64,000 nucleotides of DNA from Agarophyton chilense (lineage: Eukaryota; Rhodophyta; Florideophyceae; Gracilariales; Gracilariaceae). The notes below the pieces were generated by a model. The model saw nothing but the letters and a program-made list of their open reading frames with translations. It had not been told where the DNA came from and searched no databases. A program made the translations under genes and the position numbers. The DNA lies in NCBI GenBank assembly GCA_030374765.1, contig JARGXX010000138.1, positions 186,001 to 250,000 of the forward strand, in the 5' to 3' direction. Position 1 is the first letter of the stretch. Every line of letters starts with the position of its first letter. Shown here one piece after another: positions 1,373 through 59,404 of the stretch.

Positions 1373-2288
1373 TGTAGAGAAACGCCCATTTAGGAGATAC
1401 TTGAAGATGCAACTCATAGAATGAGGATTGAACCCTCCGAGGGTTATGATTATGATCCCCTCTAAGGAGTGCTGAGGTGGCACTGTTTTCTGGTTATATT
1501 TCGCCTATAAGGGAAAATTCGGATGGCCCATGGTTGGATTGGCCCCGTGATACACGTGGCTTAATTTTGGCACCGAATTTCGGATATTTGTTAGAACGTT
1601 GGATTTTTGGGCCCTGGCAGTGGGATCTCCACGTGTATGGCCCTGAACAGGTGTGCACTACTGTAGGGTTTAGTTAGTGGGCCCTACTTAGGGAGGCGAG
1701 ATCTGACAGTCCGAGCTCAGAGTAAATGGTAACCAAGGTTGGTCTTTCATACCTTTAGAGGTTCTTCGTCGCCATCGTTTCGGCCTTACAACCCGGAACG
1801 GGCTCTGGTTAGCAACGCCTGCGTAAGGACACGACTCCACTTGGAGAGTGCCCACGTTTGGGTTCCGTGCAACCATCCCCTTTGGGACCGCTCAGACGAC
1901 CTGCGTGCACGATACCCCGTGGGGGTTCTGCTTACTTGTTGCGTGCTTTTTGTGTTTCCTTTCGAGGACAGGTTTTCGCCCCTGTATTGGGTTTCTTTTG
2001 TTTTTTCGCCCCTTTTATGGTTCTCGGGTCCGGTGCCTGTTGGTGCCCGACCCTCGCCCCGTTTTTCCTCTTCGCCGGATTTTCCCCCATTCTTTGGGAT
2101 ACCCATACCCATTCCCGATCCAACGGTTTCTACCCCTCACCTCCGTCGGTACTGCCGGAATCCCCCGTGGGAGTTACACCCCACACTACGGGTGGAACGG
2201 AGGGCTCTGTCTCTGAGTCTGCCTCCCCCCAGGGAGCAAGGCTTCGAACATTTTGAGAGCACTTCCCGTCGCCGGGTTTTGCTCCACA
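1373..2288 (+). repeat. E1 5' LTR
   Basis: 916 bp, TGTAGAGA to GCTCCACA. It pairs with 9883-10796. Long open frames inside it (for example 1739-2392) repeat in the 3' LTR but show no recognisable protein and are treated as chance. Confidence 0.92.
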
Positions 2289-4547: not shown

Positions 4548-7500
4548 TTGGGAGTCTCCCCTGCGGGAGGGGCGTCTTCTAAGCCGGAGTTGAAGACGCC
4601 CGAGGCGCTCCAGCTTCGCTCCCCAGCTGTGACTATCCTTTCAAGAAAAACGGCTGACACCGACGTTAACTCGGGATACTTTAGTGTCCTCCGTCGCCCG
4701 TGGATACGGTCCCGTAATTTCCGTATTCCGGATCGAGTTATGGTAATGGCCAAGCGGAATTATAAAGTATTCGCCGACTTCGGCCTGTCCAACCAGTTTA
4801 TGGTTCGTCAAATATCTGTCCTGGATACAGGAGCCGCTCCTAACTTAATTCATGTGGAATTGTTACCCCCGCTGCTCCGGGTCCAAGTTCGTACCGGTCC
4901 ACGTTTGGGTATCGCCGATGCCAACAACAACCCGCTACGGACACTGGGTACTATTTCCCTCATGGTGAGGTTAGGCTCCTATCTCGTTCAACTGGAGTTT
5001 ATTGTATGCAAGTCACTTGCAGCACCAGTCATACTGGGTTGTGACTTTTGCGACCGCTTCGTTGAAGCCATCCGTCCTCGGAATAGAACTGTGGAACTCG
5101 AAGACGGGTCTACGATCCCAATCGTTCGTAAACCCTTACAGGGAGCAGCGCGAACACGCGTTCCTCTCCCCGTCGCGCAGAAATCTGTGAAGAAGGACCC
5201 GGTGTCTACACGGGTAAAGGTTGCGAAGTCAGTGGCTATCCCGCCAGAAACCCAGGTTTGGGTCACAGTTGTTACCAAGCAAATTGGTGTGCATGTGGTA
5301 CAACCGAACCCGTCTCTGTATACGCGGCGTCAATTCGCCCTTGCGAATGGGGTTGTCTCCGTGAAACCGGATAAACCTTTCAAGGTTTTGGTAGCCAACT
5401 TTGGAAAGACAACGCAGCATTTGGTCAAACACCAGATCCTGGGTTCTGTTCTTCCACACCCGCATGCCGTCGTACCTACAAAGATCTCTATCGCAGAGGT
5501 CCTCGGTGTGGCGGACCCTAAGGAGGGGGAGGACACTGCCGAAATCGCGGAAGACGGTGAGCATACGACTGCAGCTCCACACGCTGAACACTTTAAACCT
5601 CAGAAGGTTACGGCCCCTATCACTGGAGCAGACCAGACGGATCCTGTTCAGATATTGGAAAAATGGGATCTCAATCATGTACCCGCATCTCATCGGGAGA
5701 AGCTGAGGCACATGCTTCGTGAATTTACCCCCATGTGGGATGGTTCCCTTGGAACTATTGGGATTACAGAACACCGCATCGACTTGTTACCGAGCACTCG
5801 GCCTATTGCCCAACACCCTTACAGGGCTGGACCGAAAGCTCGGGAAGAGGAGAAATCTCAGATGGAGAAGATGCTTAAAGCGGGCGTAATTGAACCTGCC
5901 CAGTCCGCTTGGGCCTCACCAGTGGTGTTAGTTCCGAAACCGGATGGATCGTGGCGTTTCTGCATCTATTACAGACGCCTGTACGAGGTAACCATTAAGA
6001 ATGTGTACCCGATCCCTCGGATGGACGAATACATCGACTCCCTTGGGAGCGCTACTGTTTTCTCTACCCTCGACGCCAATTCGGGCTACTGGCAAGTCCC
6101 TATTAGGGAGGAAGATCGAGAAAAAATGGCTTTCGTGTGTCATCAAGGACTTTTCCGATTCCAGAGGATGCCTTTTGGGTTGACAAATGCCCCCGCAACG
6201 TTTCAACGGGCGATAGACATTCTGTTGGCTCCCTTCAAGTGGAGGACGTGTCTAGTGTATTTAGACGACATTATTGTCTTCTCCAACAACCTGGATGACC
6301 ACCTCGAACACGTCAGGGACGTAATGAAGATACTCCGCGACGCGGGAATCACCTTGAAACTCAAGAAGTGCGAGTTTTTCACCGATTCGGTTAAGTATCT
6401 GGGTCATATCATCCGTCCCGGACAGCTTTCAATCGATGAAGTACGAGTGAAATCCTTGAAGGAAGCAAAACACCCGAAAACTCAAACGGAGTTGCGATCC
6501 TTCTTAGGTCTGTGAAACGTGTATCGCCGATTCGTCCCGAACTTTGCGGATATTGCCACCCCCCTCAACAGGCTCCTGACGAAGGGACAGCCAGTTGAAC
6601 TGGAACCTTTTGGCGACGCGGAAACGTCTGCCTTCACGGCACTGGTGAATGCCGTAACATCACCGCCAATCTTGGCTCTACCCAATCCTGGGCTCCCTTA
6701 CGAAGTGGACACCGATGCTAGTGCAAACCAAGTAGGGGGTGCACTGTTCCAATCCTCTAAGGATGGTGAACGTCACTCTATTGGGTACTGGTCACGTTCG
6801 CTGAATGTCAATGAAAGGAACTACTCGGTCTCCGAGAAAGAATGTTTAGCCGTTGTGTGGGCCTTAGCTACACTTCGCCCCTATCTGATGGGTACTCGTT
6901 TCAAAGTCCATACGGACCACGCATGCTTGCGTTGGCGCCTGGAGATCTCCGAACCCTCGGGCCGCCTTATGCGCTGGCGTCTCCGACTGTCGGAATTCGA
7001 CTTTGAGATCCTGTACAAGAAAGGGAAGCTGAACACTCAGGCTGATGCACTATCCCGCTTGGGAACCACAGCGGAAACGGGACCCTACGAGGACGATGAC
7101 ATCCCACGTTTTATGGTATCGGACCTCGAGGGAGGAGCTCAACCGCTGACGGATGATGTTTGTGACGATATACTCGTCAACGAGAGTCTGGATTCGCCGA
7201 CTGGCTCTCCGCCTAAGGAGGGGGAGGAGGACTTAGTTCCTTCGCAGAACGATGTTTCGGCGTCAGCCAGTCGCCCTAACAGGGAATCTAGTTCTCATAG
7301 TGAGACGGCGAGCCCGACCGAGCCGGCGACAGAGAAGTCACAACCCCAGCGTATGGGTAGCAACATCACCGCCGACCCAGCCGAGCACGACGTCAGAAAA
7401 GATGACGAAAACCCGCCTAGGGAGAGTCGTGTGGAGAACTCCGCACCCGGAACGCCTACAGAGCCGACGATCACCCGCCGCCGCGGAAGAGACACTGAAG

Positions 7501-7616
7501 TGTCGCACACTCAAACCCCGCTTTCTCGGGAACGAGCTGTATCAGCGGACCCGCACGGGGATGATCTCGACGACGAGGTTGACCAAATTTGGCTCTCCGT
7601 TATGGAATGGGAATAG
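4548..7616 (+). pseudogene. pol: E1 Pol: protease, RT, RNase H (one in-frame stop, no integrase)
   Basis: This polyprotein processes Gag-Pol and reverse-transcribes the element. The aspartic protease motif DTGA is at residue 93, counting from 4548. Reverse transcriptase has the first catalytic Asp in STLDANSGY and the YLDD box at Asp573-574. RNase H shows VDTDAS, SEKECLAV, HTDHA and ADALSR. A TGA at 6513-6515 replaces the Cys codon of FLGLCNVYRRF (compare the intact E3 version near 54180), so this is a point nonsense mutation. Two further odd RT residues, IYYRRLYEV where relatives have IDYRRLNAV, suggest damage. The last 170 or so residues are an acidic Ser/Pro linker ending at 7616. No HHCC or DDE integrase follows. 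There is no usual start codon; expression is presumably by -1 frameshift from gag. Confidence 0.88.
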
Positions 7617-8215: not shown

Positions 8216-8506
8216 GTGTGTCTAGATCCTACGTTGACACCCTCAAGGGAACTAGATCGTTCCAAGATGGAAGAGAAGCCCGAACAGGGAAAAGTGTACC
8301 CGCTGGAATTCGTTATCGATCGCATCGTGCGTCACATCTACACCCCCGAGGGAGAAGTTCGCCACCAAGTCCGATGGTACGGATTCTCGCCTGAGGAGGA
8401 TACAGTGGAACCCATTGAGCACCTTCCGAGGTCTAAGGTTTTATCCTATCACCGACGCGCTCGGGTAACCTTGCCTCCAGGTCTGGATCGTGCCCAAGTC
8501 GGGTAA
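8216..8506 (+). CDS. E1 chromodomain ORF
   Basis: This 96-residue frame carries a chromodomain-like segment: VIDRIVRHIYTPEG, VRWYGFSPEEDTVEPIEHL and SKVLSYHRR. The usual aromatic WEP motif is VEP here. In chromoviruses this module sits at the integrase C terminus and directs insertion toward particular chromatin. E2 (42375-42620, minus) and E3 (about 56840-57066) carry the same module with the shared ending PRSK(V/L).YHR. In E1 it is cut off from pol because the integrase is missing, so whether it is translated separately is unknown; the ATG at 8216 is only the first available. Confidence 0.7.
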   Translation: MCLDPTLTPSRELDRSKMEEKPEQGKVYPLEFVIDRIVRHIYTPEGEVRHQVRWYGFSPEEDTVEPIEHLPRSKVLSYHRRARVTLPPGLDRAQVG

Positions 8507-9801: not shown

Positions 9802-9869
9802 TGGGAGAGAAGTATGTATAGTGATCGGAAAGCTAGACACCCGCGGCTCGGAATGTTCTTCCTCGTCTT

Positions 9870-9882
9870 AAGGAGGGGGAGA
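9870..9882 (+). other. E1 polypurine tract
   Basis: AAGGAGGGGGAGA lies immediately before the 3' LTR start TGTAGAGC at 9883, the standard position for plus-strand priming. Confidence 0.85.
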
Positions 9883-10796
9883 TGTAGAGCAACGCCCAGT
9901 CAGGGGATACTTGAAGATGCAACTCATAGAATGAGGATTGAACCCTCCGAGGTTTATGATTATGATCCCCTCTAAGGTGTGCTGAGGTGGCACTGTTTTC
10001 CGGTTATATTTCGCCTATAAGGGAAAATTCGGATGGCCCATGGTTGGATTGGCCCCGTGATACACGTGGCTTAGTTTTGGCACCGAATTTCGGATATTTG
10101 TAGAACGTTGGACTTTTGGGCCCTGACAGTTGGATCTCCACGTGTATGGCCCTGAGCAGGTGTGCACTACTGTAGAGTTTAGTTAGTGGGCCCTACTTAG
10201 GAAGATGAGATCTGACAGTCCGAAGCTCAGAGTAAATGGTAACCAAGGTTGGTCTTCGATACATTTAGAGGTTCTTCGTCGCCATCGTTGCGGCCTTACA
10301 ACCCGGAACGGGCTCTGGTTAGCAACGCCTGCGTAGGGACACGACTCCACTTGGAGAGTGCCCACGTTTGGGTTCCGTGCAACCACCCCCTTGGGACCGC
10401 TCAGACGACCTGCGTGCACGATACCCCGTGGGGTTTCTGCTTACTTGTTGCGTGCTTTTTGTGTTTCCTTTCTAGGACAGGTTTTCTCCCCTGTATTGGG
10501 TTTCTTTTGTTGTTTCGTCCCTTTTCTGGTTCTCGGGTCCGGTGCCTGTTGGTGCCCGACCCTCGCCCCGTTTTTCCTCTTCGCCGGATTTTCCCCCATT
10601 CTTTGGGATACCCATACCCATTCCCGATCCAACGGTTTCTACCCCTCACCTCCGTCGGTACTGCCGGAATCCCCCGTGGGAGTTACATCCCACACTACGG
10701 GTGGAACGGAGGGCTCTGTCTCTGAGTCTGCCTCCCCCAGGGAGCAAGGCTTCGAACACCTTGAGAGCACTTCCCGTCGCCGGGTTTTGCTCCACA
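9883..10796 (+). repeat. E1 3' LTR
   Basis: 914 bp, TGTAGAGC to GCTCCACA. It matches 1373-2288 with scattered substitutions and one- to few-base indels. Confidence 0.92.
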
Positions 10797-37777: not shown

Positions 37778-38183
37778 CAGGAGCTCGGATACTCGTTCGT
37801 CTCGGAAACTACCGCCTAAGAAGAACAGGTCCCAGTCCCTGAAAAAAGGAATGATGCCGATCGTTCTTCTCTTTCACCTCTTTTAGATTGAGAACTCACA
37901 AATGTTCATGTTCCCAACATACAAGACCCTTTGAGTTTGGACCCAGACATATTGGACGAACCAAACTTGTTGTCTCTCCATCCGTTCCGTTCATCCTTCT
38001 TTGCGTCACAGGAAGAAGAAACGGCTGTGAATGTACCCTCAATGGACGTCGGGAACCTCAACTTGGCAGAGATGTTCGTGAGACCATGCTTAGGTTCCCT
38101 ACCACAGGCGAAAATCTATTCTCTTCAGAGCACAGGATTATCGAGCTGATCAAGAAGGTCATTGGAGACCAACCAGCAACAGA

Positions 38184-39423: not shown

Positions 39424-40269
39424 TGTAGGACAACGCTTGGAGCGGAGACACCACGAAGATGTTCGGGACCTTCCTCTCTTGAGAAACACGCCTCAGGCGG
39501 AGGAGACGCGCTCCAGCAGAGCACAGGAACAGAGCCACTCTGGAAAGGCACGACGGAGTCGGATATAAGACCGCAGCCAATCTGGCGGGATATACCTAGA
39601 GTGTTTAGGTGAGCACGGCACAGTCCGGGGTGTGACCAATCCTAGGCGGAGCGATACCACGGCGATTGTCGGAAAAGAAGCGAGGAAACAATCGTATGAG
39701 GTGGACGAGCGGGGTCAGTGGAGCGGCCACTCACGAGAGCCAAAAAGGAGAACAAGAGGAAACGGGGGCGAAACCCTATACAGGGGCGAGACTACGAACA
39801 GTGTCGGCGATTAAATATGAACCCACGGTGGTGGTAGCACTCTGGTCGACAGAGGGGTGGATGAACTAACTTGCGACGGGCGCTCACGCAGTATGCAGTG
39901 AAGACGCGCCGAAGGCGAAGAGTTCAGAGCCAAGAATCCCTCCTTGGGATCCCCCAAGAGGGTGTTTACTGGGGAGCAGTGCTCAACCTCCTAAGTAGTG
40001 TGGTGCACGGCCCCTGAAAGTGGGCGCGCGCCCGAAAATTAGACACTAAATAGCGATAGCGTAGCTAAATAAATACTGAAAATTACTAAATAATACTAAC
40101 CATAAAGTAGAATCCGGGCCACGTGTGGCACGCCTCGCACTCGAGCGTCGGCATCCGTGCAGTTCACGTGTTCCACCAGTGTGCACCTCCGGTCCTAACC
40201 GGCCGTCGGCACGCAATGGTGGGATAGCTTGTCATAGGCCAAGCTAGTTCTCAAGCGAATTGCCCTTCA
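39424..40269 (-). repeat. E2 3' LTR
   Basis: 846 bp in the minus orientation, starting TGAAGGGC (40269) and ending TCCTACA (39424). It matches 58671-59404 with a few substitutions, apart from about 112 bp near the outer end that are deleted in the other copy. Confidence 0.9.
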
Positions 40270-40282
40270 TATCCCCCTCCTT
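40270..40282 (-). other. E2 polypurine tract
   Basis: AAGGAGGGGGATA on the minus strand abuts the 3' LTR start. It is nearly the same as the E1 tract AAGGAGGGGGAGA. Confidence 0.85.
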
Positions 40283-40304
40283 AGGTGACAAACACGCCGT
40301 CGAC

Positions 40305-42161
40305 ATGGCGGGGAGGCAACGGTCCAACCGGCATAAAAGCGAGCCGCTTAACGCGTCCAGCAACGACTCGACTGTCGAAGGCAGAGCTGCACAACCGAAC
40401 GACAAACGCACCAACGTGGTAATCACTCCTCGAACTTCGAGCGTTCTTCTGCATCGTACACCAACTTCCAGCGAACACATTCCGATACCTGGGCGACCAG
40501 TATTCTTGATGAACGGTGGTAACAATTCCCGCCGGGGTTACTTCTCCGGTTTCCATTCGGCTCCCCTTCCGCGGGGGAGTGCCTCGTCAACCGCGCCGAG
40601 CCGATCCCGGGGTCCCGTTGAAGCTTCAAGCCACATCACTCCTGCGGAGGACACCTGGCCGACTTACGACGAACTCGTCGGGTTAAACCCGCGTCAACAT
40701 GCGGCGATTCTCCGGATAGCTCCGTGGTTCCATCCGACAGCGGTCTTCGACGAAGAACTCGCGTGGCGTTCTATGCTGATGGCAATGCGCGTCTCCCGGG
40801 CGAGCTGCTGGCTTTGATCACCACCTCGTGGGATTGGCGACGCCGTGTGGCGGTTCCCGTTCACGCGATTCTGAGGCGGAGGCGCGAGTCGGCGGAGGGG
40901 GCGCATTGCGTATTCGTCCGCATTGGCTATTTACGGATCAACCGGGCGAACTTTCAATACCCCATCCCCGACGAATTCGGCTTCGACCTACAGATGTACC
41001 GGACTCAGGGTGAGATCGGCTATTGTGACCGCCTTGCGGCGTTGGAAACTTACGCATGGCGCGGTCAACCGCGAGCGCGTCAAGAAGCAATCTGCTATCA
41101 TTCGTGCCGAGTTCCGTCACCTTCGTCGTGAGTCCCGATATCGGTGGTTACAAAACTTCATCTGCGAGGAGCGTCGGGGCAGATCCCGCTTTGGGTTCTT
41201 TGTCCCTTATCAGAAAACGTAGATAAACCGGATTAGTCCCTTCTATCAGTTCGGGCGATACGTTCCCTTGCCTGGGTGGTGGTCCTCCGTCGATGTGTGC
41301 CGGGGATGTTACGTGGAGTTGCCTCCAGTCGTCTCCTATCTGGGCTCGTACCTCATCGAGGATCCGCACTCCGGCTTATGGTGCGTGGTCCTAACCGAAT
41401 GGGCAGTCCGCGCCGTGGCGTACATCTTGTGGGAAGCCTACGACCGGTATCGACTGTGGTATCTTCCTCCGCGTTTTCGTGGTTACATCCGGCAGCTGGA
41501 CCTTCAACTCTCTCTTGGAGGTTTCAATAACGCTGATGAAGCTCAGGAGCTCATCGACATCATTGGGCGTGTCGACTGGGCTGTCGTGCCTGTCCGACAG
41601 AGCGGCCGTGGTCAAGAAGCCCGTGGGGCTGATCGGTCTCCGGGGCGTCGCACGCCGTTGGCGGGAGATTTCATCTTCTTTAACCCATGAGAGAAGCAAG
41701 AGATCTCCGAGGCGGAGGCGTCGGCACTCCGGATGGCTCCGCGAGGCATACCATACGGGCACCCCGTGGGGTTTATCAACTCGGATGACTTCTAGTACGC
41801 CTATGGCGGTGATCTCCCGGAGGAGTCGGGCGAATACCGTGGCGACGAGGTCATGGAAGACGTGGGAGACCCCGATGGTGCCGATACTACGGCGTAGCCG
41901 GCGCAGGGAGCTACTCATGCAGGTGCAGTGGTCGATCCAGTGGCGGAGGCGTTGCCGGACGAACCGGAAGTTGTCGAGGTTCCCATGTGCCCAGAGGCGG
42001 CCGTGATCTCCCAGTTCCTTCGGGGTGTTGAACTGAACGCGCAAGCGGCGATCGGCGACATCGGTACGATGAGAGACGCCCTCGTGGCACTCCTGGCCGG
42101 CGGGAGTAACTCCGCTAGCGATTCTACTGGCGCGCACGGTAATCCGGGTTCTTCCAACTGA
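40305..42161 (+). pseudogene. Antisense coding region of E2, conserved with E1, unknown family
   Basis: Opposite in strand to E2 gag-pol, it begins with ATG at 40305, 36 bp inside the 3' LTR, and runs about 1.86 kb (about 619 codons). Frame 40305-40817 is followed by a shift near 40730-41130, then one frame from 41223 to 42161 broken only by stops at 41688, about 41794 and about 41896. Visible parts are a basic, Ser/Thr-rich N terminus, a Trp/Tyr/Arg-rich middle (YDELVGLNPRQHAAIL, WEAYDRYRLWYLPPRFRGYI), then RQLDL, WAVVPV, SPGR, FIFFNP and YGHPVGFINSDDF, and an Ala/Val-rich tail. The segment from RQLDL to DDF aligns with the E1 antisense frame. The function is unknown; it is not gag, pol, env-like or a known chromovirus extra ORF that I recognise. 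Confidence 0.65.
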
Positions 42162-42374: not shown

Positions 42375-43464
42375 TTAGCCCACTTGGGCTCGGTCTATGG
42401 TAGCCGGCAAAGCCGTGACAGTAAGACGATGATACTGTACCACCTTTGACCGAGGTAGGTGCTCTATCGGTTCGTCTGAATCCCATTCGGGGCCGTACCC
42501 GTGCCAACGGACCAAGTATTGGATATATCCCTTTGGGTGGTAGGAGTGCTCCAAAATGCGTCCGACCACGAACTCTTGTCGGTAAACTTCCCGGCCATCC
42601 CGTGTCGCTATTTCCGGGTGGTACCCATCCTGAGCCAGGGGGTACCGAAGTGATCACGCGTTGGGTGGCTTCGCTCCGGTCGGAACGTGTAGCGCGCAAG
42701 GCAGTCCTCGGCTGAGTGGAATGTCGACCCGACTTCGGCGGTTCATCTTCCCCAAGTGCCTGGTTTGCTTCGGCGTTTCCCACTCTGGTTGGAAGGCCCA
42801 CACCGGCGGGTAACCCGGGTGGTCGTTCCGCTAATCGGCGTGGTGAAGCTCGCTTCGGCGGTGAGATTTGCGCGGGCGGTGGCGCATTGTCGCACCTCTC
42901 TGTGTCACGGCGAGGTTCCGTGTAGTCACGTGAGGGTTCTGATGGCTGGCTGTCCGGCGTCGGCGCCGTGGATGGGTCCGCCTCCCTGTGCGGGGTACTT
43001 GGCGGTGCGTCGTCCACTCGTACCGTATCAGGCTGCAGTGCGTCGAGCGCATTTGCATTCTGTGTTGCACGTGTGGTGACACCTCGGCGAGTGTTGGTGG
43101 CGTTATCCGCAGCTGCGTTTTGAGGCTTGGATAGCGGCTGCGTCGAGTCGTGCAGGACATCGGTATCAGGCACCCCTGATGGGCGAAGAATGACACGCGA
43201 CGGTGCGGCGTTTCCAGCGACGATATCGACCGGATTATGACGGCTGTCGGGCGCCTCCCCCTCCTTCGACGATGCACCTGGGTTGTTGTCTGTCAGGTGG
43301 ACCAGGGAGGAGCGACGAATGCGCGACACGATTTCTTGCGGGTTGGGCGCCGTGGGTAGCGGGAGGTCAGAAAAACCCCCGACATGGGTGGGGTAAGGCG
43401 TAGGGACGTGGATGGACCTGGGGTAAGGGTGTCGAGGAATCCGTTTTAACGGGAGCAGTAACAC
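42375..43464 (-). pseudogene. E2 linker and chromodomain
   Basis: A Pro/Asp/Arg-rich linker of about 250 residues follows integrase in a shifted frame (from about 43460). The chromodomain then lies in a third frame: EFVVGRILEHSYHP, YLVRWHGYGPEWDSDEPIEHL, SKVVQYHRL and a final AQVG stop at 42375. Two indels (near 43400 and 42590) break what was probably a single Pol C terminus. The same AQVG ending occurs in E1 at 8506. Confidence 0.75.
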
Positions 43465-44686
43465 CAGTAGGTTGGGTGGTTAACGGCGGAGGAGCCGATA
43501 CCACGCGATCGCGGGAGATGCAGTCGTGATTACCAGCGACGTCAACAACGACAGTGTCGGGAGCCACCGAAATAACCCGAAAGGGGCCGTCGGCAACGGG
43601 TGACGGCTTGTGGCGTTTCTTCTTCTCTGGGTTCCCATACTCCTTGCGGATGAATACAAAACCGTCGGGGGCGAGACGTGGCGGCGAGCGAGGGGCTTTG
43701 GTATAAAAGTCACGCTTGTAAGCGGCCTGGGCTCGACCCATTGAACGCCGTGCGGCGGGAACGAGCTTCGTGAGCCAAGTTTTCCACGCTTCGCGGTAAG
43801 CAGTCGGTGACGGAAAGGTATCCAGCGTGGGCTGTGGTTCCAGCGCCACGGGCGGTGGGGTACGGGACAGTACCAACTCGAAGGGCGTCAATCCAGTTGT
43901 CCTGTGCACCTGCGTATTGTACGCAAAGGTGAGCGCATCAGTGAACAAGTCCCAATCTTTGGGGTGGTCTGCAACGTATGAACGGAGTGTCGCAAGTAAT
44001 GTCCGGTTGAACCGTTCGGCCTGCCCATTAGTTTGGGGGTGGTAAGTGGTCGTGAACAGCTTCTTTATGTCCAAGATGCGATATACATCCTCGAAGAAAC
44101 GAGAGGCGAACTGTTTCCCGTTATCGGAGAGGAGATTGACCGGTGGACCGTAGACGAAGACCCATTGTAGGACAAAGACTTGAGCCACGCTCATAGCGGA
44201 GATCTTCCGTAACGGTACGGTCCGGACCAGCTTTGAGAAGGGATCCATAATTACGAGTAAGAACTTGTAATTCTGCTTAGTGATAAGGAAGGGACCGAGT
44301 ATATCGATGGCCACAAACTCTAATGGAGCGCGAGCTGGAAACAGATTCAACTTCGTCGCGTGACGGCGGAGCTTGACACGGTTCCGAGCCCAATCGGTAC
44401 AAATTCGCGCCGTTGGGTAGCAGTCCACCGACATGGCTGGCCAGTAGAAGTTATGACGTAGGGTGAGGTAAAGTTTCCGTCTCCCGACTTGGCCACTCAG
44501 TTTGGAGTAGTGCAACAACTGCAAGACTTTCGACTGGAGGTTATGTGGTGCCACGATTTTTGGGTGCGATCCGACGGTCCGTACCAGGTATCCGGCGTCA
44601 TTCACCTGAAAGGGGAGAGTACTTCCTCCATTGATTTGAGCGCGGAACTTCGCACAGAACGGGTCAGTGAATTGCTCCCGTATCAT
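43367..44686 (-). pseudogene. E2 integrase
   Basis: 439 residues follow a TAG stop that separates them from RNase H. The HHCC zinc domain is present with the last CX2C altered to C-TDW. The core has Asp in VAIDILGPF, Asp in LLSDNGKQF and Glu in NGQAERFNRT, the DDE triad that joins the DNA copy to the chromosome. The TYHPQTNGQAERFNR motif is typical of Ty3/Gypsy. The frame runs into the linker and ends at 43367. A TAG before it means it is not expressed as part of Pol today. Confidence 0.85.
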
Positions 44687-46489
44687 CTACTCCGGAGTAA
44701 TAGGCACGAAGTTCCCTGGTAAGGGTTTCTCGGAATATTTCGAGAGAAGAAAGTCGTCTAATTCGGAACCCGAATCTGAAGAGTCCGTGTCTCGTTCCTC
44801 GTCCTCGATGGTAGCTTCGTCGCCATTCACTGCAAAGCAGGGTATTTCGTCGTCTTTGACGGGTAGTGCTTCGCCAGTAGTGACCACGCGGGAGATAGCA
44901 TCGGCTTCGGTGTTGCACGATCCTCTTCGGTACTGCACGTCAAAGTCAAATTCCGCTAGACGGAGACGCCAACGCATCAAGCGGCCTGAAAACTCCGAGA
45001 TGGAGAGTAGCCATCGAAATGATGCGTGGTCCGTAAAAACGGTGAAATGATTACCCATGAGATGGAAGCGCAACGTTTCTAATGTCCACACTACTGCAAG
45101 GCATTCCTTCTCCAAGACGGATTAATTCTTCTCGTGGACGTTTAGCGATCGGGACCAGTACGCTACGGAGCGTCTTTCCCCATTGTGTGCAGTTTGAAAC
45201 AGTGCACAACCTACTTGGTAGTCGCTGGCGTCCGTATCTACGGTGAAGGGCCTTCCAGGCTTGGGCAACGAGAAAATCGGGGCGGAGACGAGAGGATCCT
45301 TAAGAGAGTTGAAAGATTCCGATTGAACGGGGGTTAAGGGGTCCAGTTTTGGTGGTGGGTCTTTCCGCAAAAGCGCGTTTAACGGTGCAGCTTTGTCCGC
45401 AAAGTGCGGGATGAATCGTCGGTAGACGTCTGCGTGTCCCAGTAAGGAACTAAGCTCGGTTCGCGTCCTCGGTTCTTTAGCCTCTTTGAGTGACTTAACA
45501 CGAGTCTCCTCGATCGTAACACGTCCTGGACGGATAACATGGCCGAGATACTTCACGGTGTCCGTGAAGAAGTCACATTTCTTCAACTTAACAGTGACAC
45601 CCGCATCTCGAAGCGTGGTCATGATATCCCTCACATGAGTGAGATGTTTGTCCAGATAATCTGAGAAGACGATTATGTCATCCAGGTAGACCAGGCAGGT
45701 ACGCCATTTGAAGCGATCCAATAGGATGTCGATGGCTCGCTGTAAAGTAGCGGGGGCGTTGGTAAGACCAAAAGGCATCCGTTTGAAACGGTAGAGACCG
45801 GAGTGACACGCGAAAGCAGTTTTACCCTGGTCTTGCTTCCTTACCAGAACTTGCCAGTATCCCCAATTAACGTCCAGGGTTGTAGAGACGGTGGCGGTGC
45901 CCAGCGAGTCAATGTGCTCGTCCATTCTTGGGACTGGATACACGTCCTTGACGGTGACGGCTTTCAACCGACAGTAGTCGACGCAAAACCTCCATGAACC
46001 ATCCTGCTTTGGAGCCAGTACTACTAGAGAAGCCCACGGCGACTGAGCCGGTTCAATGACTCTTGCTCCAAGCATTTTATCCACTTGTGCCTTTTCCGCC
46101 GCGCGTGCGGCGGGTCCGGCACGGTATGGGGGCTGAGAGATGGCTCGGGTGTCCGGTAGCAAATCAATCCGGTGTTTCGTAGTGGCAATCTCAGCAAGGG
46201 AGCCGTCCCACATAGTGTTGAAGTCCCTTAAAAGTACTCGCAATCGATGGCGGTATGACTCCGGGACGTGGCTGAGATCCAGGTCCTCGAGTTCTTGGAC
46301 TGGATCGGGGCGGTCACCACTCGTTGAAACGGGCTGCATCCCTGATGTTACAGGTTGAACCCCGGGTACCGGCGGTGAAACGGGTTCCGGGCTGTCCCCC
46401 TTCTTAAATTGAACGAGTCCAAGAACGTCAGATGCATTCAGCTTTGTCGGCACCATAGCGATGGGGTGCGGCATGACGGACCCTATCAC
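44687..46489 (-). pseudogene. E2 reverse transcriptase and RNase H
   Basis: RT (46489-45122) shows the catalytic Asp in STTLDVNWGYW, PFGLTNAPAT and YLDDIIVFS. RNase H spans a TAA at 45119-45121: VDTDASDYQVG lies before it, EKECLAVVW, FTDHASFRW and EADAISR after it. A second stop ends the frame at 44687. A TAA near 46490 separates RT from protease. These are single-base nonsense changes in otherwise well kept domains. Confidence 0.88.
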
Positions 46490-49165: not shown

Positions 49166-49885
49166 GCTGTAGTATTTTACTATGTCGGGGAATCCGATAG
49201 GTTGGTTTTTCGCGAAGTCGCGGTTGGAACTCATAAGTGAGTGTTATCATCAGCATTGTGACATGAAACGGCATCCCGAATAGGATGCCTAGAGGCAGAA
49301 TGTCTTATTGGAACACGTGGCGTCATGGGTCGAGTGGCTTACCACGGCGCGCGCATAGTTGCGACCCTTCCTAGGGGAATTCCATATTGGCAACGGCGCA
49401 TGTAGTGGCGATCCACGTGGAGGGCTTAACTACCCGTTGTAGCTAGACTTCCATTAGGGACCATACCCCCATACAGTGGTTTGGCTAAGTGGCTGACCAT
49501 TTGGTATTATTTATATATTTATTTGGGCACTCACCCTGGTACACAGTGTATAGTGTACCAGACGTGAGCACCGACTCCAAGTAAAGGAGACAACATGGGC
49601 ATCATGAGTATTCTGTTCCTCCCTTGGGATTCCTTAACCGGAGCTCCGGAAGAGCTATAATAGATAGTCAGCCCCCAACCACTTCACGAGCCGTCTCATA
49701 CCTACGTTACATCAACGTTTTACAGTTGCACTGTTCACCCTCGCTGGCGAGTAGTGGCCTTACACCCCACTTCCAGCTCGTTGGTGTTGTAGCTCTACCA
49801 CCCCTTTTCCTTCGCCGCAAGCGACCCATCGGCATTCCGAACGCTGTCGCAGGTGTCTGCTCTCTCCGTTAGCGCGGATATTACA
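49166..49885 (+). repeat. E3 5' LTR
   Basis: TGTAGTATTTTAC to GATATTACA. It is about 50 bp longer than the 3' copy because of indels, for example the block around 49345-49395. It is also homologous to 499-1150. Confidence 0.88.
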
Positions 49886-49887
49886 AG

Positions 49888-49905
49888 TGGTCTCCCGACT
49901 TAGAA
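49888..49905 (+). other. E3 primer-binding site
   Basis: TGGTCTCCCGACTTAGAA begins 2 bases after the LTR. It is identical to the E2 site on the minus strand at 58650-58667. Confidence 0.75.
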
Positions 49906-50100
49906 CCACTGTGGTCAGCTGCACTGAACAATTCGTTCCTGGAACGTGGATTCGATATCGATACTTGGAAGAAGTGGAATCACTACAGTTATTGTTTATC
50001 GACCCACCTCCGGCCATTGTGGAATTCTTCGTGATTGAACACGTGGTCGAGAAGTCGAAGACACCATTTGGTTCGCACCTGGACTCAGGTTTGGTCTAGG

Positions 50101-52253
50101 ATGCCGAAGACCCGAAGCCAGTCGAGTACTGGTCGCCCCAGTCCTGCGGGACCACCCCCGAAACCGAGGCTCGCCTCATCTGTTGAAGCCGGAGAGCGGC
50201 TGTATCGTCAAGCGATGTTGCGCTCACGCTCGGTGAATGATGAACGAAATCTCTCGGATGTATCGGCCCCTGTGGCAGCGGCAGTCGCGCCCAGCACAGA
50301 AGCCGTAGTTGACCCTGAGGTCGTAGGACCTCAAGAAGAGGATGATTTGCGCAGGGAAGTGTGTCGTCTCAAGTCTGAGTCAAGCGCTTCACGTGTGCGC
50401 ATGGTTGCGTTGGAATCGCAGATCGCTGCTCTTATCGCTGATGTCGAACAATTACGCAGTGCGCATCAAGCACTCATTCGTCAAGACGATGGGAAGCAGG
50501 TCTCTTCATCAGTTAAAACACTACGTGAGGGTTTGAACCATCTACTGGAGAGGTACGGGAATACGCCCGATGCGCTACCCGGCTTAACCGTGTATGTATA
50601 GGAAGTCTTCACTCGAGTTAACCCTCGTCTAGAACGCCTGGAGGTGGCAGTTCATGCGCAGACTGCTGCTAAACCAGTCGTGCTGGAAGAGGAAGGAGCT
50701 CCTTTGAAGGAAGCTCGTTCGAAGAAGTCGAAGTCACGACGTAAGAAGCGGAAGTCCGCACGTGAGTCGAGTGATTAATCGTCAAGTACGGAGGGTTTCA
50801 GTTCCAGTACTGATGATTCTGATGATTCAGGTACGTCAGATGACTACGACAGTGATGATGGTCATCGAAGGTCCCGATCTCGGAAGAAGAACACGTCTTC
50901 GTGGTTAATGAGAAAAAAGACTCACCTTACAGAGGAGTGAAGGTGCTCCCGGGCACGAATCCGCTTTATCGGAAGGTCCTGAATTAGATGTACTACCGTC
51001 TTAAGGTGAAGAGCAAGAAGCGCTCAGGACGCGAAACCGCGAAGGTGAAGGATCACATCAAACGATTGAAGATCGGCATTAATGAATCAACATTTGATTG
51101 GAAAACTCCCATTCTCGTTATCGAGTTTCTCACTCGATTAGTTGCCGAAGCAGACACTCTAGAGATGAGTGAACCACAAACATTTGTGTCTTTACCACAC
51201 TTTTTGAAGGGTTTTGCTTTAGAGCAATATCGTTCCGTATGCGGATCATTGACAGCCAATGAAGGCGGCGTTACCTCATGGCCAGAGGCGGTGCAGTATT
51301 TGTTGCGCAGTTACGCGACTTCAATCGCGATACGTCAGGCGATCCTGGACTTAAGGGATGTGACCCAAAACCCTGAGGAGGGCGAACCTGAGTACAGCTC
51401 AAGGCTTAGCAAAGCTTCAGTCCGTTGTGGAAACGTCCACTCGACGGAGGACAAGATTACCTTGTACATCGACGGGCTGGACCCGAGCATCAAGTCGTTG
51501 GTAGCTCGATATCGAGAGAAGCATGGGAGAGTCTCCTTTTTGGAGTTAGTTCAGTTTGCGAAAGCTGAAGGAAACGCGGCCAGAGCGCGTGGTAGCCACA
51601 GTCGTTCAGTGGCTTTTGGAATCTCAATGGGTAAGGAGAAGATCTCCGCCAGAGTTAATCAGCGCAGCAAACTGTTACATCTGGAATCTCCAGTGCACTC
51701 ACGAGATTCGTCGTTGGCACCCAAAGGGAGTGATTCGCATGAGGAGGCGGTCCATTTAATGGAATATACGGACTCTTCTGTACCTACAGTGTATTTCCCA
51801 CACTCGGAGTCTTAGGACGAGGAAGCCCTAATGGCTATGGAGGGCCGTCGCCCTATACACCGTCCCTACACGGTGCCTCCACAAGGAGGTTTTAAGAAGG
51901 GGAAACCCGGATGGGTGGATACTCGCACGGCATACCGTTCACAACCTATGTTGACCAACGGTCGTGACGGTTTGATATGTTATTCATGTTATGGAAAATA
52001 CCATTTGAGTGCAGAATGCACGCTCCCTGCAAAGGATCTGAGTCTTATTATGACGAATTATGAAGCACTCTCAGAAGAGGAAAGGAGGTGCGTACCGGCG
52101 GGCATGTATTGGAAAGCCAAAAGTTGGTTTTCTCAGACACCAATGCCCCGGACGGATAAGCCGGTTGCTCAAAATGCTAAAGTGTTACAACCTGGAACCC
52201 CTGTAGGAAGAGGTGCCTTTGAGGCGAATAAGCCTGTGCAACCAGAAAACTAA
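50101..52253 (+). pseudogene. E3 gag, broken
   Basis: It begins MPKTRSQSSTG at 50101. Coiled-coil, acidic Ser region, capsid-like domain (ILVIEFLTRLVAEAD) and a CX2CX4HX4C knuckle (CYSCYGKYHLSAEC) are in the same order as E1. Stops at about 50599, 50776, 50985 and 51813, plus a frame change between about 50880 and 50990, disable it. It ends GAA AAC TAA, one A short of the E1 and E2 heptamer context. Confidence 0.85.
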
Positions 52254-52294
52254 GTGAGAGAGCCCCTAGGGGGTCGGCACTAGTCGATCCCGTA

Positions 52295-55200
52295 GTGCTG
52301 ACCAGGGAAAACTCGCCTCCCTGCTCCCGCGCTTGGAAGCCCAAGATTCTCTTGAGGCCTCCCAAATTTCCGCCGTACGGAATCAATCCGCCGGACGGAA
52401 AGCGATTACAGTTTGACTGTGAGTTACATCGTCCTTGGAGACGTTATGCTTGTCCGTCAAAACGGGAAAGTTACCTCATGGTAGTGTCTAAAAGAAACTA
52501 TAAGGTCTATGCCGACATCGGCTTTGACAGGAATATGTTGTCTCGTCGATTGACAATCCTGGACACAGGTACTGGTCCGAACTTTATACGGGAATCGGAG
52601 CTCGCTCCTGCTGACTTAGAACGTATTCGATACGGTCCTTTACAGGACATCCGGGATGCCAACAAAAATGCTGTGAAGACACTGGGAACAGTTTGACTCG
52701 TGGTGTGTTTGGGACGCTTTGTAGTACTAGTCAACTTCATCGTCTGTAAGACGTTAGCTGCACCAGTGGTACTGGGATGTGATTATTGCGACAAGTTTGT
52801 CGAAGCCATTCGCCCGCGAAAAAAACTAGTGGAACTAGATGATGAATCAATGGTACCAACTGTTCGCAAGCCCATGCGTCGTTGCTCTGAAGCATCTCCA
52901 CTTACACCATCTCTGGAATACGGGAAATCCCGAGGACGTGTCTCGCCGAGGATTCGAGTAGCGAAGAGTGTCATTCTGAAGGCGCAAACCCAAACTTGGG
53001 TTCAAGTAAGAACAGAACGACACGGACTGGTGGTAATTCTACCGAATACTCGGATGTACGAATCCCGTGGATTGCTAGTCGCTAACGGCATGGTTCAGGT
53101 TGATACTGGTAGCCCCTTTTGGATACTAGTGAGTAACTTCACCGATAACGATTATCAGATACCGAAGAATCAGGTTGTTGCAACAGCTTTGCCTCATCCC
53201 ACAGTGGTGGTACCTACTCATATTTCTACTGCAGAAGTATTGGGATTAACCCATGTCGGTGACACAGACGAAGAACTGCAAACTCCGTCTGGAGATCAAT
53301 TGCAAACGGCAAAGGATCCAGAGAGCCTGGTCGATGAGCTAGACTTTGCACATGTGTCGGAACACTACAGAACGAAGATCAGGTCTATTATGAAGAAGTA
53401 TACATCCATGTGGAGTGGAAAAATAGGAGAGATCTCCGCTACGGAACACCACATTGATTTGGTCCCAAGGTCACGACCCATCTCCCAACCACCCTACAGA
53501 GCGGGACCCCGAACTCGCCAAATCGAGGAGGAGAATGTCAGCCAAATGCTGGAAGAAGGAGTAATCGAAGCAGCTCACTCTGCTTGGGCCTCACCAATGG
53601 TGCTGGTTCCAAAACCTGATGGTTCTTTACGATTCTGTATCGATTATCGAAAACTGAACGCAGTTACAGTTTGGGATACATACCCGTTGCCTCGAATGGA
53701 CGAATATATTGACAGCTTAGGAGAAGCGAACGTGTTCACCACGTTGGACGCCAATTCTGGCTATTGACAGGTGCCTGTAGCGGAAGAAGACCAAGACAAA
53801 ACCGCATTTGTGTGTCACGCCGGTCTCTACCGTTTCAAAAGGATGCCCTTTGGCTTAACGAATTCACCGGCTACTTTCCAGCGTACTCTGGACATCTTGC
53901 TCTCAAGATACAAGTGGAAGACTTGTTTAGTCTATTTGGACGATGTGATCATCTTTTCCCAGGATGTGGAAAGCCATTTACGGCATGTCGATCCTCAAAG
54001 CCCTACAGAGCGCAGGTATCACCTTCAAGTTCAAGAAATGCGAATGGTTCGCTGGCACCGTCCGGTAGTTAGGACATGTGATCAAGCCGGGACAGCTTGC
54101 CATTCAAGAGGCACAAACAGCGGTTCTCCGCGAAGTACAACCTCCGTCGACACAGAAGCGATTGCGTTCTTTCCTGGGCTTGTGCAACGTCTACAGACGA
54201 TTCGTGCCACGATACTCGCATATAGCGGCACCGCTCAACGCAAAGCTGCGTAAAGGACAAACAGTACAGCTGGAACAATTCAGACAAGCTGAAGCGGAAG
54301 CGTTCTACACGCTGAAGACAAAGATTATTACAGCCCCAGTCTTGGCGCTGTCCATCCCCAACCTGCCACACTCAGTGGATCCCGACTCTAGCTAGTACCA
54401 AGTAGGGTGTGCCCTTTTTCAAACACACCCTGATGGTGAACGCAAACCCATTGGTTACTGGTCAAGATCGCTGAACGCAGCTGAGAAGAAGTATTCAGTT
54501 TCAGAAAAGCAATGCCTTGCAGTCGTTTGGGCTCTAACCACATTGCGACCGTATCTCCAAGGAGAACGTTTTACCGTCAACACGGATCATTCGTTTCTAC
54601 GATGCTTACTGTCCATTACAGACCCGTCTGGTCGTCTCACAGGATGGCGCTTACGCCTTTCTGAATTCGATTTCGAAGTGAAGTGTAAGAAGGGATTGGC
54701 CAATGTCCAAGCTGACGCGCTATCGCGACTCAAAACACTGGGCGAAACCCAAGGCGAAATCGATGAAGAGATACCTTGCTTCTACATGGAGACCAATTCA
54801 CCATCTTTTGAAGAAGAGGAACAAGAGACCCTTGATGATTATTCGGATGCAGACCCATTCCTTGCATTTGCAGACACTGACCCTTCAGTTCAACTCGAGC
54901 GAATCTCGTGCACTGAGCTCCTCAATGAGCAACACGCCGCTCCGTTTTGTGCGTCGATACGCTCTCGTTGTAACGGGGGGGAGGAGCTCCCCTTTTCAAT
55001 CGATTCACGAGGAATACTGTTAAGACATGTCGAAAAGCATGATCAAATCGTGATTCCACACGTCTGGAAGAGTCGAGTACTCCATCTGGCACACTACAGC
55101 AGGCTGTCTGGTCATCCAGTAGGAACGAAGTTGTTCATGACTCTAAGAAGAGATATTTACTGGCCTACTTTGGCAATGGACTGCCATGCTACAGTGAGGT

Positions 55201-56138
55201 TGTGTACAACATGTGCGAAGAATCGCGTGAAGCTTTACAGGAAGCGGAAACCGATGACGTTATTCCAGGCGAAAGTGCCTTTACAATACGTCAGTATCGA
55301 CATCCTATGGGAATTGATTCGCTCAAGGCGAGGTTATCGATACCTATTGGTAATCACCGACCGCTTCTCGAATCTAGTGCGGACTGTGTTGCTGAAGCGG
55401 ATAACCGCCGCCGTAATCGCACAAGCGTTCATCAAACATTGGGTGTTTATATACGGACCACCAGAAGTTCTGTTATCAGATAATGGGAAGCGATTCGTTG
55501 CGAAGTTCTTTCAGAATGTTTGCCGCATTATGGGCATTCGAAACGTGTTTACCACGACCTATCATCCGAAATGCAACGGTCAGGTGGAGCACTTCAACCG
55601 CATGCTGATAGCAGCATTACGACACTACATCGCGGACCACCCGAAAGAATGGGACATGTTTACAGATACTCTGTGATACGCGTACAATACCCAAGTGCAT
55701 ACCTCTACAAAGACGGCACCGTTCGACCTCGTGCTCTCACGTAACCCTCCTGCTTTACCTGTTGCGCTCGACGACGAGACAGAATTGGACGCGCCGACCC
55801 CCGGCTAAGTACCATCTGAAATGGAGGAATGACCTGAAGGCCAGAGCGGAAGAAGCTGCTAAGGAGTTATCAAAGACGCAAGCTCGCTATAAGCGAAACT
55901 ATGACGCCAGAAGGCGAAGAGGAAATCCAGAAATCCGAGTAGGAGGTCACGTCTTCGTGCTAGTCCAAAGACCTGACAAACAGTAAGAATCTCGTCATAA
56001 GTTGTTGCCGATAGCGGCTGGACCCTTCAAACTGGTAGACCTTAATGAAGACACAGTGGTCATCAAGACAGGTGAGGACGTTGAACGTGTATCGCGCGAT
56101 CGCGTTGAAGTCGCGCCTGACCCGCAAGTGGAAGTCTA
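52295..56138 (+). pseudogene. E3 Pol, broken
   Basis: Protease (ILDTGTGPNF) is followed by a TGA at 52694. RT has FTTLDANSGY, with TGG to TGA just after it (53765), and YLDDVIIFS. The frame changes near 54000. RNase H begins after a TAG near 54393 and keeps NTDHS and ADALSRL. Integrase has a complete zinc domain (LCTTCAKNR) and the DDE residues in VSIDILWEL, LLSDNGKRF and NGQVEHFNR. A TGA at 55674 and a frameshift near 55750 precede the integrase C-terminal segment RARYKRNYDAR-like and VERVSRDRVEVAP. The LGLCNVYRRF box near 54180 is intact and shows that the E1 stop replaced a Cys. Confidence 0.88.
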
Positions 56139-56310
56139 GGTATCTGGTAGAACTAAGGAGGCAAGTGCCACGGAACGTCACGGCCAAAGCCCAAGTGACT
56201 CTGGAGAGAGTGAACCGCCACCAATGGCTCGAGCGGAGTAGAAAGCTCTTGATCTCCCACCGCCGGCAGTTGCGTACGCCAATCACGGACAGCTTTCGAA
56301 GTATCGGGAT

Positions 56311-57069
56311 ATGCTCCGTGGCACGTGCACACCCATAAGTACAGAAATGGAACCTGAAAGCAGGAAAGATGTTTTGGACTTTGGCCCCAAGGACTTGGAA
56401 ACGAGTGCACGCGAAAACGCGCCGTTGCCGCTTCAGGCTGAACCGTCAGGTGAAGCGCCACTCGCTGTTCCGCCGATATCGGCTCCCATCCCTCGCGGGC
56501 AGGAAGAGGAAGAGGTATGGCCTCCTGTCGTGGTGCAAGCACCATCGTCCACCGAACAGCGGTCAGAATCGGATAAACCGAAGAAAGTTCATCGACCAAT
56601 GGAATTGAGAAATAGCAAGAAGTACGCTTCTATGGAACCTGGAAAACAGGATAGATCTTTATCAGAGAAATGTTCTCAAGGAATGAGTACACTGCCCCTG
56701 CGGGCAGAACGACAGTTAGTCGACGAGCGAACGCTTAGCGACGCTGAGACTGCTAACACAGAGACGCTTGGGTCAGCCCTAAGGCATTTCGAACCTGTTA
56801 AAAGGAGTATCGCGCCAACAGCGAAAGAATTGGGAAACGCCCAGGAATATGTTATGGATCGCATATGTGAACATGGCGAGCAAGAAGATACTAGAGAATT
56901 ACTGTATCGAGTCCGTTGGTACGGTTTTCCTCCGGAAGCGGATACGTGGGAACCTATAGCTCATATCCCCCGTTCGCAGCTCGTGCGATATCATCGACGC
57001 ATGCGATTACTACTCCCCAGGGAGATCCACTCCTCGATAGTCGGGCTCATTGGAACATCCCATTTCTAA
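56311..57069 (+). pseudogene. E3 Pol C-terminus with chromodomain
   Basis: 252 open residues contain a Pro/Glu/Ser-rich linker then a chromodomain: YVMDRICEHGEQED, LYRVRWYGFPPEADTWEPIAHI and LVRYHRRM. Unlike E1 and E2 it keeps the canonical TWEP. It is in the same frame as the preceding integrase end but separated by stops between 56138 and 56311. The last residues lie about 510 bp before the 3' LTR. Confidence 0.8.
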
Positions 57070-57568
57070 GTATGAGCTACAAAGGTAGTAAAAACTCGAA
57101 AGGCGAGAAGAAAACAAGAAGTCATGAAGAAGAAACGTGAAAACACGCAAGCACAGGACATTTACTGATTATCACTTATGAAGAACTCGAGAAGCGAGAA
57201 GAAGAATTGAAGAACTCGAGAAGCGAGACAAGAATTCAGGCACTCATTAGGCCGGGAACAACCAGTATCATTGGTATTGCTTTATGGCTCGGGTGTGGCG
57301 TTTGTTAAGATCGGCAGACACCATATGATGGAGTGGACTGCTTGCTGAAGCCACACTGGCTGAAGGAACCCTGAAGGCACGACTTAGCCGTCAAGTTTGA
57401 CGGGCTGTGACCATTGCGGTTCATCGCAGGATGTGGAAAGGCGGCTGGCGCCCGAACATTAGAGGACTGGGTGTGCTAAAAGAAGTCCTGAGAACGATGA
57501 GTACCCGGAAAGCCGGTCGTCGCACGTGTGGCGCACCTGTCTTGCGCCCGATACGGTTCGCGCTTAGC
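57070..57568 (+). other. E3 3' untranslated region
   Basis: This holds a purine-rich part (57070-57240) with the unit AACTCGA(G/A)A(G/A)GCGAGA repeated about three times, then non-coding sequence. No antisense frame comparable to E1 or E2 is present. Confidence 0.5.
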
Positions 57569-57578
57569 GAGGGGGGTA
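57569..57578 (+). other. E3 polypurine tract
   Basis: GAGGGGGGTA abuts the 3' LTR start TGTAGTACT at 57579. Confidence 0.75.
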
Positions 57579-58246
57579 TGTAGTACTCTACTACTTCGGC
57601 GTTCCGATGGTTTTTTGTCGCAAAGTGGCGTTTGGAACTGATTACTGAGTGGCCTGGTCAGTGCTAGGATAAGAAGCAACACCCCGCACCGCGTAGGATG
57701 CCAGGAGGCAGGGTACATTGTTGGAACACGTGGTATCACGAGTGGAGTGGCTTGCAACGGCGCATGTAGTGGCGATCCACGTGCCTGGTTTTACTACCCT
57801 TTGTAGGTGTAAGTCTATTTGGAACCATACCCATACAGTGGTTTGGCTAAGTGGTTGACCACGTGGTATTATTTACGTATTGTTTGGGCACTCACCCTGG
57901 CACACAGTATATAGTGCACCAGAGGTGAGCGCCGACTCCAAGTAAAGGAGACAACATGGGCATCATGACTATTCTGTTCCTCCCTTAGGATTCCTTAACC
58001 AGAGATCCGGACGAGCTATTATAGATAGTCAGCCCCCAACCAGTTCACGAGCCGTCTCGTACCTACATTTCATCAACGTTTTACAGTTGCACTGTTCACC
58101 CTCGCTGGCGAGTAGTGGCCTTACAACCCACTTCCAGCTCGCTGGTGTTGTAGCTCTACCACTTCTTTTCCTTCGCCGCAAGCGACCCATCGGCAGTCCG
58201 AACGCTGTCGCAGGCGTCTGCTCTCTCCGTTAGAGCGGATTCTACA
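57579..58246 (+). repeat. E3 3' LTR
   Basis: TGTAGTACTCTAC to GATTCTACA. It is clearly diverged from the 5' copy (indels and many substitutions), indicating an old insertion. Confidence 0.88.
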
Positions 58247-58670: not shown

Positions 58671-59404
58671 TGTAGGACAACGCTTGGAGCGGAGACACCA
58701 CGAAGATGTTCGGGATCTTCCTCTCTTGAGAGACACGCCTCAGGCGGAGGAGACGCGCTCCAGCAGAGCAAAGGAACAGAGCCATTCTGGAAAGGCACGA
58801 CGGAGTCGGATATAAGACCGCAGCCAATCTGGCGGGATATACCTAGAGTGTTTAGGTGAGCACGGCACAGTCCGGGGTGTGCCCAATCATAGGCGGAGTG
58901 TACTACGGCGATTGCCGGAAAAGGAGCGAGGAAACACTCGTATGAGGTGGACGAGCGGGGTGAGTGGGGCGGCCACTCACGAGAGCTAAAAAGCAGAACA
59001 AGAGAAAACGGGGGCAAAACCCTATACAGGGGCGAGACTACGAACAGTGTCGGCGATTAAATATGAACCCACGGTGGTGGTAGCACTCTGGTCGACAGAG
59101 GGGTGGATGAACTAATATGCGACGGGCGCTCACGCAGTATGCGTTGAACACGCGCCGAAGGCGAAGAGTTCAGAGCCAAGACTCCCTCCTTGGGATCCCC
59201 CAAGAGGGTGTTTACTGGGGAGCAGTGCTCAACCTCCTAAGTATTGTGACGCGCGCCCCCTGACAGTGGGCGCGCGCCCGAAAATTAGACACTAAATAGC
59301 GATAGCGTAGCTAAATAAATACTGAAAATTACTAAATAATACTAACCATTAGGTAGAATCCGGGCCACGTGTGGCACGCCTCGCCCTCGAGCGTCGGCCC
59401 TTCA
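58671..59404 (-). repeat. E2 5' LTR
   Basis: 734 bp. It pairs with 39424-40269 and lacks about 112 bp between GAGCGTCGG and CCCTTCA that the other copy retains. Its outer end at 59404 is fixed by the CAATC target duplication that follows. Confidence 0.88.

Follow-up and report, generated by a model that had tools for sequence, protein, structure and literature searches.

At least four Ty3/Gypsy retrotransposon families of Agarophyton chilense share a gene encoded antisense to pol and next to the 3′ LTR

The window, by which we mean the whole stretch of 64,000 nucleotides of Agarophyton chilense DNA analysed here, contains two LTR retrotransposons, E1 and E2, each of which carries a copy of a gene encoded on the strand opposite to pol (Table 1). 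E2 is interrupted by a third element, E3, nested within it. Reverse transcriptase (RT), RNase H and integrase are found in Gypsy order and a chromodomain is present, features of chromoviruses (Ty3/Gypsy), the assignment being made by domains alone. The chromodomain profile PF00385 scores 27.7 bits against a cut-off of 25.1 in L072, a member of family F4 described below, and 13.4 bits, below the cut-off, at the frame end of L071 from family F3.

Table 1. Retrotransposon features in the window (positions are those of the window)
Feature	Position	Strand	Basis or remark
E1 5′ LTR	1373..2288	+	
E1 protease-like region and reverse transcriptase (RVT_1)	4548..6515	+	
E1 RNase H frame	6519..7616	+	
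E1 region similar to F4 chromodomain	8306..8500	+	44% over 66 aa
E1 antisense gene, copy with an internal deletion; its intact homologues have 618 aa	8904..9801	-	translation, tblastn, profile
E1 3′ polypurine tract	9869..9880	+	~67 bp from antisense ATG
E1 3′ LTR	9883..10796	+	
E2 3′ LTR	39424..40270	-	LTR comparison; outer and inner edges approximate
E2 3′ polypurine tract	40272..40283	-	21 bp from antisense ATG
E2 antisense gene, copy in decay; its intact homologues have 622 aa	40305..42161	+	translation, tblastn, profile
E2 antisense gene, part lying in a different frame	40763..41098	+	tblastn
E2 region similar to F4 chromodomain	42381..42578	-	40% over 67 aa
E2 integrase (rve, Integrase_H2C2)	43367..44686	-	
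E2 reverse transcriptase frame	45122..46489	-	homology to E1 and F3 pol
E3, member of family F4 nested within E2; no antisense gene	49168..58246 (approximate)	+	
E2 5′ LTR, extent matching the 3′ LTR; nested E3 lies between it and the remainder of E2	58671..59398	-	

In E2, a sequence-only reading had described a plus-strand coding region of about 619 codons starting 36 bp inside the 3′ LTR. The start was placed well, the ATG lying ~35 bp from the LTR edge, and an antisense coding region does occupy 40305-42161, but it does not form a single open run, as six internal stops (at 40815, 40872, 41220, 41688, 41793 and 41895) lie between the initial ATG and the terminal TGA at 42159. When an intact relative was used in tblastn, its residues 1-153 and 268-622 were recovered in the 40305-42161 frame, and its residues 153-264 in another frame, at 40763-41098. 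Since this segment is homologous in another frame, the true path through the window copy of E2 changes frame twice and contains four stops. The counterpart placed by the same reading in E1, at 8904-9801 on the minus strand, is present in the same relative place and orientation as in E2, and is missing ~320 residues, the gap running roughly from residue 70 to residue 390. Given that both window copies are decayed, the two regions first noticed are remnants of a real gene.

Intact relatives of this gene were found in the assembly from which the window is taken (79.8 Mb, 135 contigs). Searches with two pieces of the E2 frame gave at least 150 and at least 151 scored matches, and a search with a piece of the E1 antisense gene gave at least 150. 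Nine of the 150 scored E2-family matches (counted by eye) have no stop in the matched piece together with an open frame of at least 600 aa, and open frames of at least 610 aa occur in 51 of the 150 scored E1-family matches, both being beyond what chance would give. Families F3 and F4 were found by searching the assembly with the database protein P0002 (68 matches, L072 among them). Complete ATG-to-stop frames are present in the E1 family (L031, L032 and L036; 618 aa), the E2 family (L011 and L015; 622 aa), F3 (L039, L040, L048 and L050; 645 aa) and F4 (L072; 560 aa), and the start codon context is ATGG in all listed family members. The antisense gene combines a high copy number with conservation at the protein level (between-family omega ~0.23). 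In 20 of the 150 scored E1-family matches the open antisense frame is exactly 254 aa long; this form may be a truncated derivative that spread. As regards more general sequence signatures, no exact match to a spliced leader of the dinoflagellate/perkinsid type was found, and within the window none with up to 3 mismatches; Fungi_U3, hydrophobin and Fungal_trans likewise gave no match, but these three negatives carry little weight because the controls gave no signal either.

The ordered block of residues that had been noticed as common to E1 and E2 reflects true homology, intact members of the two families sharing 41% identity over 437 aa (E 1e-114). By BLASTP, the antisense proteins of E2 and F3 are 48% identical over 639 aa and those of F4 and E1 are 35% identical over 476 aa. 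A profile built from F3, F4, P0001 (another database relative) and P0002, without E1 and E2, matched the antisense frames of intact E2 and E1 loci with E values of 3.6e-173 and 2.4e-154, respectively, the remaining frames of these loci giving 1.3 or worse. Applied to the window, the same profile retrieved the antisense frame of E1 and, for the broken gene of E2, the two frames over which it is spread; the best of the remaining frames had an E value of 0.24.

Comparison between families indicates selection on the encoded protein, as had been claimed from the window alone. For the antisense genes of E2 and F3, dN/dS by the Nei-Gojobori method is 0.19-0.22, with silent sites near saturation; maximum likelihood (ML) estimates of omega are 0.233 (GY) and 0.235 (MG) with two E2 and two F3 copies, and 0.232 with all seven antisense sequences. 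For the integrase of the E2 and F3 families the values are 0.165 (ML) and 0.087 (Nei-Gojobori), and since omega is higher for the antisense gene, the latter is selected but less constrained. Four of the six possible family pairs were examined, and in these no frame other than the antisense one is free of stops, and none has a lower pN/pS; second-lowest is the mirror frame, which shares third positions with it and contains 18-25 stops. Two other explanations do not account for the shared block, namely sense coding, as each sense frame across the antisense region contains 3-25 stops and the chromodomain ends before the region, and nucleotide homology, as E1 and E2 are 48-49% identical at the nucleotide level over ungapped codons of the antisense gene. 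On the basis of these sequence comparisons, purifying selection maintains the antisense frame in at least four families.

The same data bear on the possibility that the frame is open by chance, or as a shadow of sense coding or of conserved DNA on the facing strand, and has no protein function. Sense-strand shadow frames of 279-298 codons are indeed present, and the within-family test for E1 and F3 presented below does not favor the antisense frame. Nevertheless, the sense frames carry stops and are not matched by the profile, the between-family omega is 0.23, and even the decayed E2 copy has six stops in a frame for which base composition predicts ~20, so that this explanation, already largely refuted by the frame comparison, the profile and omega, is extremely improbable. 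We also regard it as very unlikely that the antisense RNA is the functional product, acting as double-stranded RNA or by interference with gag-pol, and that the protein is secondary: non-coding antisense transcripts are described for some elements (PMC7264820), but here it is the amino-acid sequence that is under selection (omega 0.23), and four families have an open frame longer than 550 codons.

Comparing copies within families by dN/dS, which had been proposed as a check, gave a mixed outcome. For E2, 28 copies were taken, non-randomly, from the best-scoring matches (L051-L070, L020-L028 and the window copy L009, minus L020 and L025, which were left out because they represent the same places as L062 and L066). 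Their antisense dN/dS is 0.61, and eight copies of the E2-family integrase give 0.48. Among the 28 copies, variants found in at least two copies are enriched in synonymous changes (synonymous:nonsynonymous 101:128) relative to singletons (231:570; p 2e-5), and so are those found in at least three copies (31:44; p 0.034). The singletons, on the other hand, are near neutral, as expected after insertion. The mirror frame -1 also gives a signal in this set (p 0.0017 for variants in at least two copies), yet it contains ~26 stops per copy. In E1, for which 7 of 10 loci were long enough, antisense dN/dS is 0.681 versus 0.662 in frame -0 and 0.680 in frame -1, and in eight copies of F3 it is 0.847 versus 0.652 in frame +2, so that the antisense frame is the lowest in neither family; too few differences are available for within-family dN/dS to separate the frames in E1 and F3. 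The shared-variant test likewise gave no significance for the antisense frame in the seven E1 and eight F3 copies. For frame -1 of E1 a p value of 0.013 was obtained (4:0 versus 45:92), which we read as noise.

Identities of the reverse transcriptase are 72% for E2-F3, 66% for E1-F3, 63% for E1-E2, 56% for F3-F4, 50% for E2-F4 and 49% for E1-F4; for the antisense protein the corresponding values, from alignments of unequal length, are 48, 37, 41, 35, 38 and 35%. The two rankings agree in the closest pair, E2-F3, and in the low values for F4, while E1-F3 is out of order, and E2 groups with F3 in the codon tree of the antisense gene as it does by RT identity. This suggests that, in four or more families within a single genome, the antisense gene and pol have descended together. 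The lower identity of the antisense proteins (35-48%, against 49-72% for RT) denotes a fast divergence that would fit an arms race, and copy numbers are high, both of which would be compatible with a counter-defence factor blocking host silencing of the element by RNA interference or heterochromatin. However, omega is far under 1, no known silencing-suppressor domain was recognised with Pfam, and convergent transcription itself would tend toward double-stranded RNA; we therefore hold a counter-defence role to be quite unlikely.

As to the protein itself, a Pfam search with 15 family members found no family over the cut-off, and in particular no bZIP domain; PF04195 (TRP28) was found in none of the 15 at E values up to 1. 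A PDB sequence search with the antisense protein found no match, and neither Pfam nor PDB sequences revealed any similarity to gag or capsid. A search of a database of ~5.8 billion proteins, in which 8000 candidates were scored, identified two relatives. P0001 is 48% identical and 581 aa long (longest contig 21.9 kb), and P0002 is 30% identical and 648 aa long (3.3 kb); a second search returned P0001 only. By comparison, F3 pol has 5682 relatives at E 1e-50 among 8000 candidates scored. Relatives of pol are thus plentiful and those of the antisense protein seldom detected, a scarcity that may be due in part to faster divergence combined with a word-based search. The protein is variable at its N-terminus, which is followed by a core and an acidic linker; weak structure models (mean pLDDT 47.5 and 62.2) suggest that the N-terminus is disordered, that the core is mainly helical and that the C-terminus forms a short pair of helices, and a fold search with these models gave no match. 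The top 19-residue hydropathy mean is 0.93-1.57 in four antisense proteins, so by this measure there is no clear membrane segment, including of the Env-like kind, in these four, and the protein is probably soluble. By a crude count, the E1 and F4 proteins are without a basic cluster.

One could imagine that the protein is a structural or complex-associated component, made late and entering the particle or the pre-integration complex, where it would aid nuclear import or target choice. The conservation of the antisense gene together with pol would agree with such a role, the helix pair and the helical core of the weak models could serve assembly, and transport of the pre-integration complex has been raised as a role of such genes (PMC7264820). 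A particle protein has no need of an antisense promoter, though, and similarity to gag or capsid was absent from the Pfam and PDB sequence searches, and we consider this possibility unlikely.

In E1, E2, F3 and F4 alike, the antisense gene is located between pol and the 3′ LTR on the opposite strand, which is the arrangement of the aORF-3R class; in L071 (F3) and L072 (F4) it runs toward the end of pol. In E2, ~219 bp separate its stop codon from the chromodomain region; in F4, the stop codon and the end of the chromodomain frame are ~360 bp apart. At the other end, the ATG of F3 is 20 bp from the polypurine tract; in F4 a polypurine tract was looked for and not located. The 3′ polypurine tract TAAGGAGGGGGA, exact or with one mismatch, also has two internal copies each in E1 and E2, the sites being 5519-5530, 7214-7225 and 9869-9880 on the plus strand and 40272-40283, 43256-43267 and 46395-46406 on the minus strand, i.e. 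six in the window versus 0.2 expected, and L071 has two internal matches to a shorter form, its sites being 1339, 5077 and 8216. The internal copies in E1, E2 and L071 have the appearance of conserved central polypurine tracts.

Antisense accessory genes of LTR retrotransposons have been reported chiefly from plants and from a single fungal element, and their function is presented as open (PMC7264820, PMC11963269); the accounts available cover the plant class and brtn of Boty (PMC11963269, PMC5348765, PMC7264820, PMC5408684, PMC8365987, PMC4227169). The position between pol and the 3′ LTR is not new, since it is known from Grande (gene23), RIRE2 and Retand, in which most family copies retain the gene (PMC7264820, PMC11963269), and from brtn of Boty, a fungal Gypsy element of Botrytis cinerea and Sclerotinia (PMC7264820, PMC8365987). 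Nor does the suggestion hold that such a gene in chromodomain elements is a first occurrence, because the gag-pol of Boty-like elements carries a CHROMO domain in addition to brtn (PMC4227169, PMC7264820). The elements studied here share with Boty both the chromodomain gag-pol and the extra antisense gene, and differ in that one homologous protein is found in at least four diverged families, BRTN being compared by its description only; no match in our protein-database searches with the antisense protein bore the name BRTN. Retand belongs to a non-chromovirus lineage and has the TRP28 domain in 97% of clusters (PMC11963269), unlike the elements here, which have a chromodomain and whose 15 proteins are without TRP28 (PF04195). 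No description of the present protein was met in our searches of the open-licence literature on antisense genes of such elements, and the protein family appears to be new.

With regard to function, the Grande antisense gene has its own promoter and a nuclear product (PMC7264820, PMC11963269), and HBZ of HTLV-1, also an antisense gene, is expressed from the 3′ LTR, is nuclear and lowers sense expression (PMC10186651). The likeness to HBZ lies in antisense coding near the 3′ LTR; HBZ differs in being a bZIP protein, and the link to the LTR is seen here in the nearness of the ATG. As the ATG adjoins the 3′ LTR, an antisense transcript arising in or near the LTR would be the simplest route to expression. 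The antisense mRNA, converging with gag-pol, would then start at a promoter in or adjoining the 3′ LTR. By analogy with Grande and HBZ, the protein might act on the cycle of its own element, most simply as a nuclear regulator of transcription, of copy number or of the handling of the pre-integration complex. Established here are the gene and where it lies, its homology between families and the selection acting between them; we consider it fairly probable that this is a genuine antisense accessory gene of a chromodomain Ty3/Gypsy group, whose product regulates the cycle of its own element via an LTR-side transcript. A more far-reaching version, in which a new protein family without recognisable domain or fold match is ancestral in a whole chromodomain Gypsy group and acts as an LTR-driven antisense self-regulator, a retrotransposon counterpart of HBZ with an origin separate from that of the TRP28 proteins of plants, is possible but doubtful.

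At least four diverged families of high copy number have intact frames for one homologous antisense protein, and selection on it is therefore measurable. The intact antisense frames are ready targets for stranded RNA sequencing and for localisation. If the gene is expressed, the set of antisense-coded retroelement genes would gain a protein that is matched by no library used here, and if self-regulation is indeed its role, the four families and two database relatives would mean that Gypsy evolution has arrived at antisense regulators more than once.

Some further observations concern the nested element E3 and other repeats in the window. Although E3 is the nested element, its LTRs are the more dissimilar, with an identity of 90.8% over 490 bp versus 95.5% over 729 bp in the enclosing E2. 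At window positions 57228-57540, E3 is without the antisense-gene stretch that L072 has (L072 5865-5972); at the break point, repeat matches overlap with a spacing of ~29 bp. Elsewhere, at 14254-14829 and 37888-38418, the window contains frames that by eye resemble fragments of Copia integrase and reverse transcriptase.
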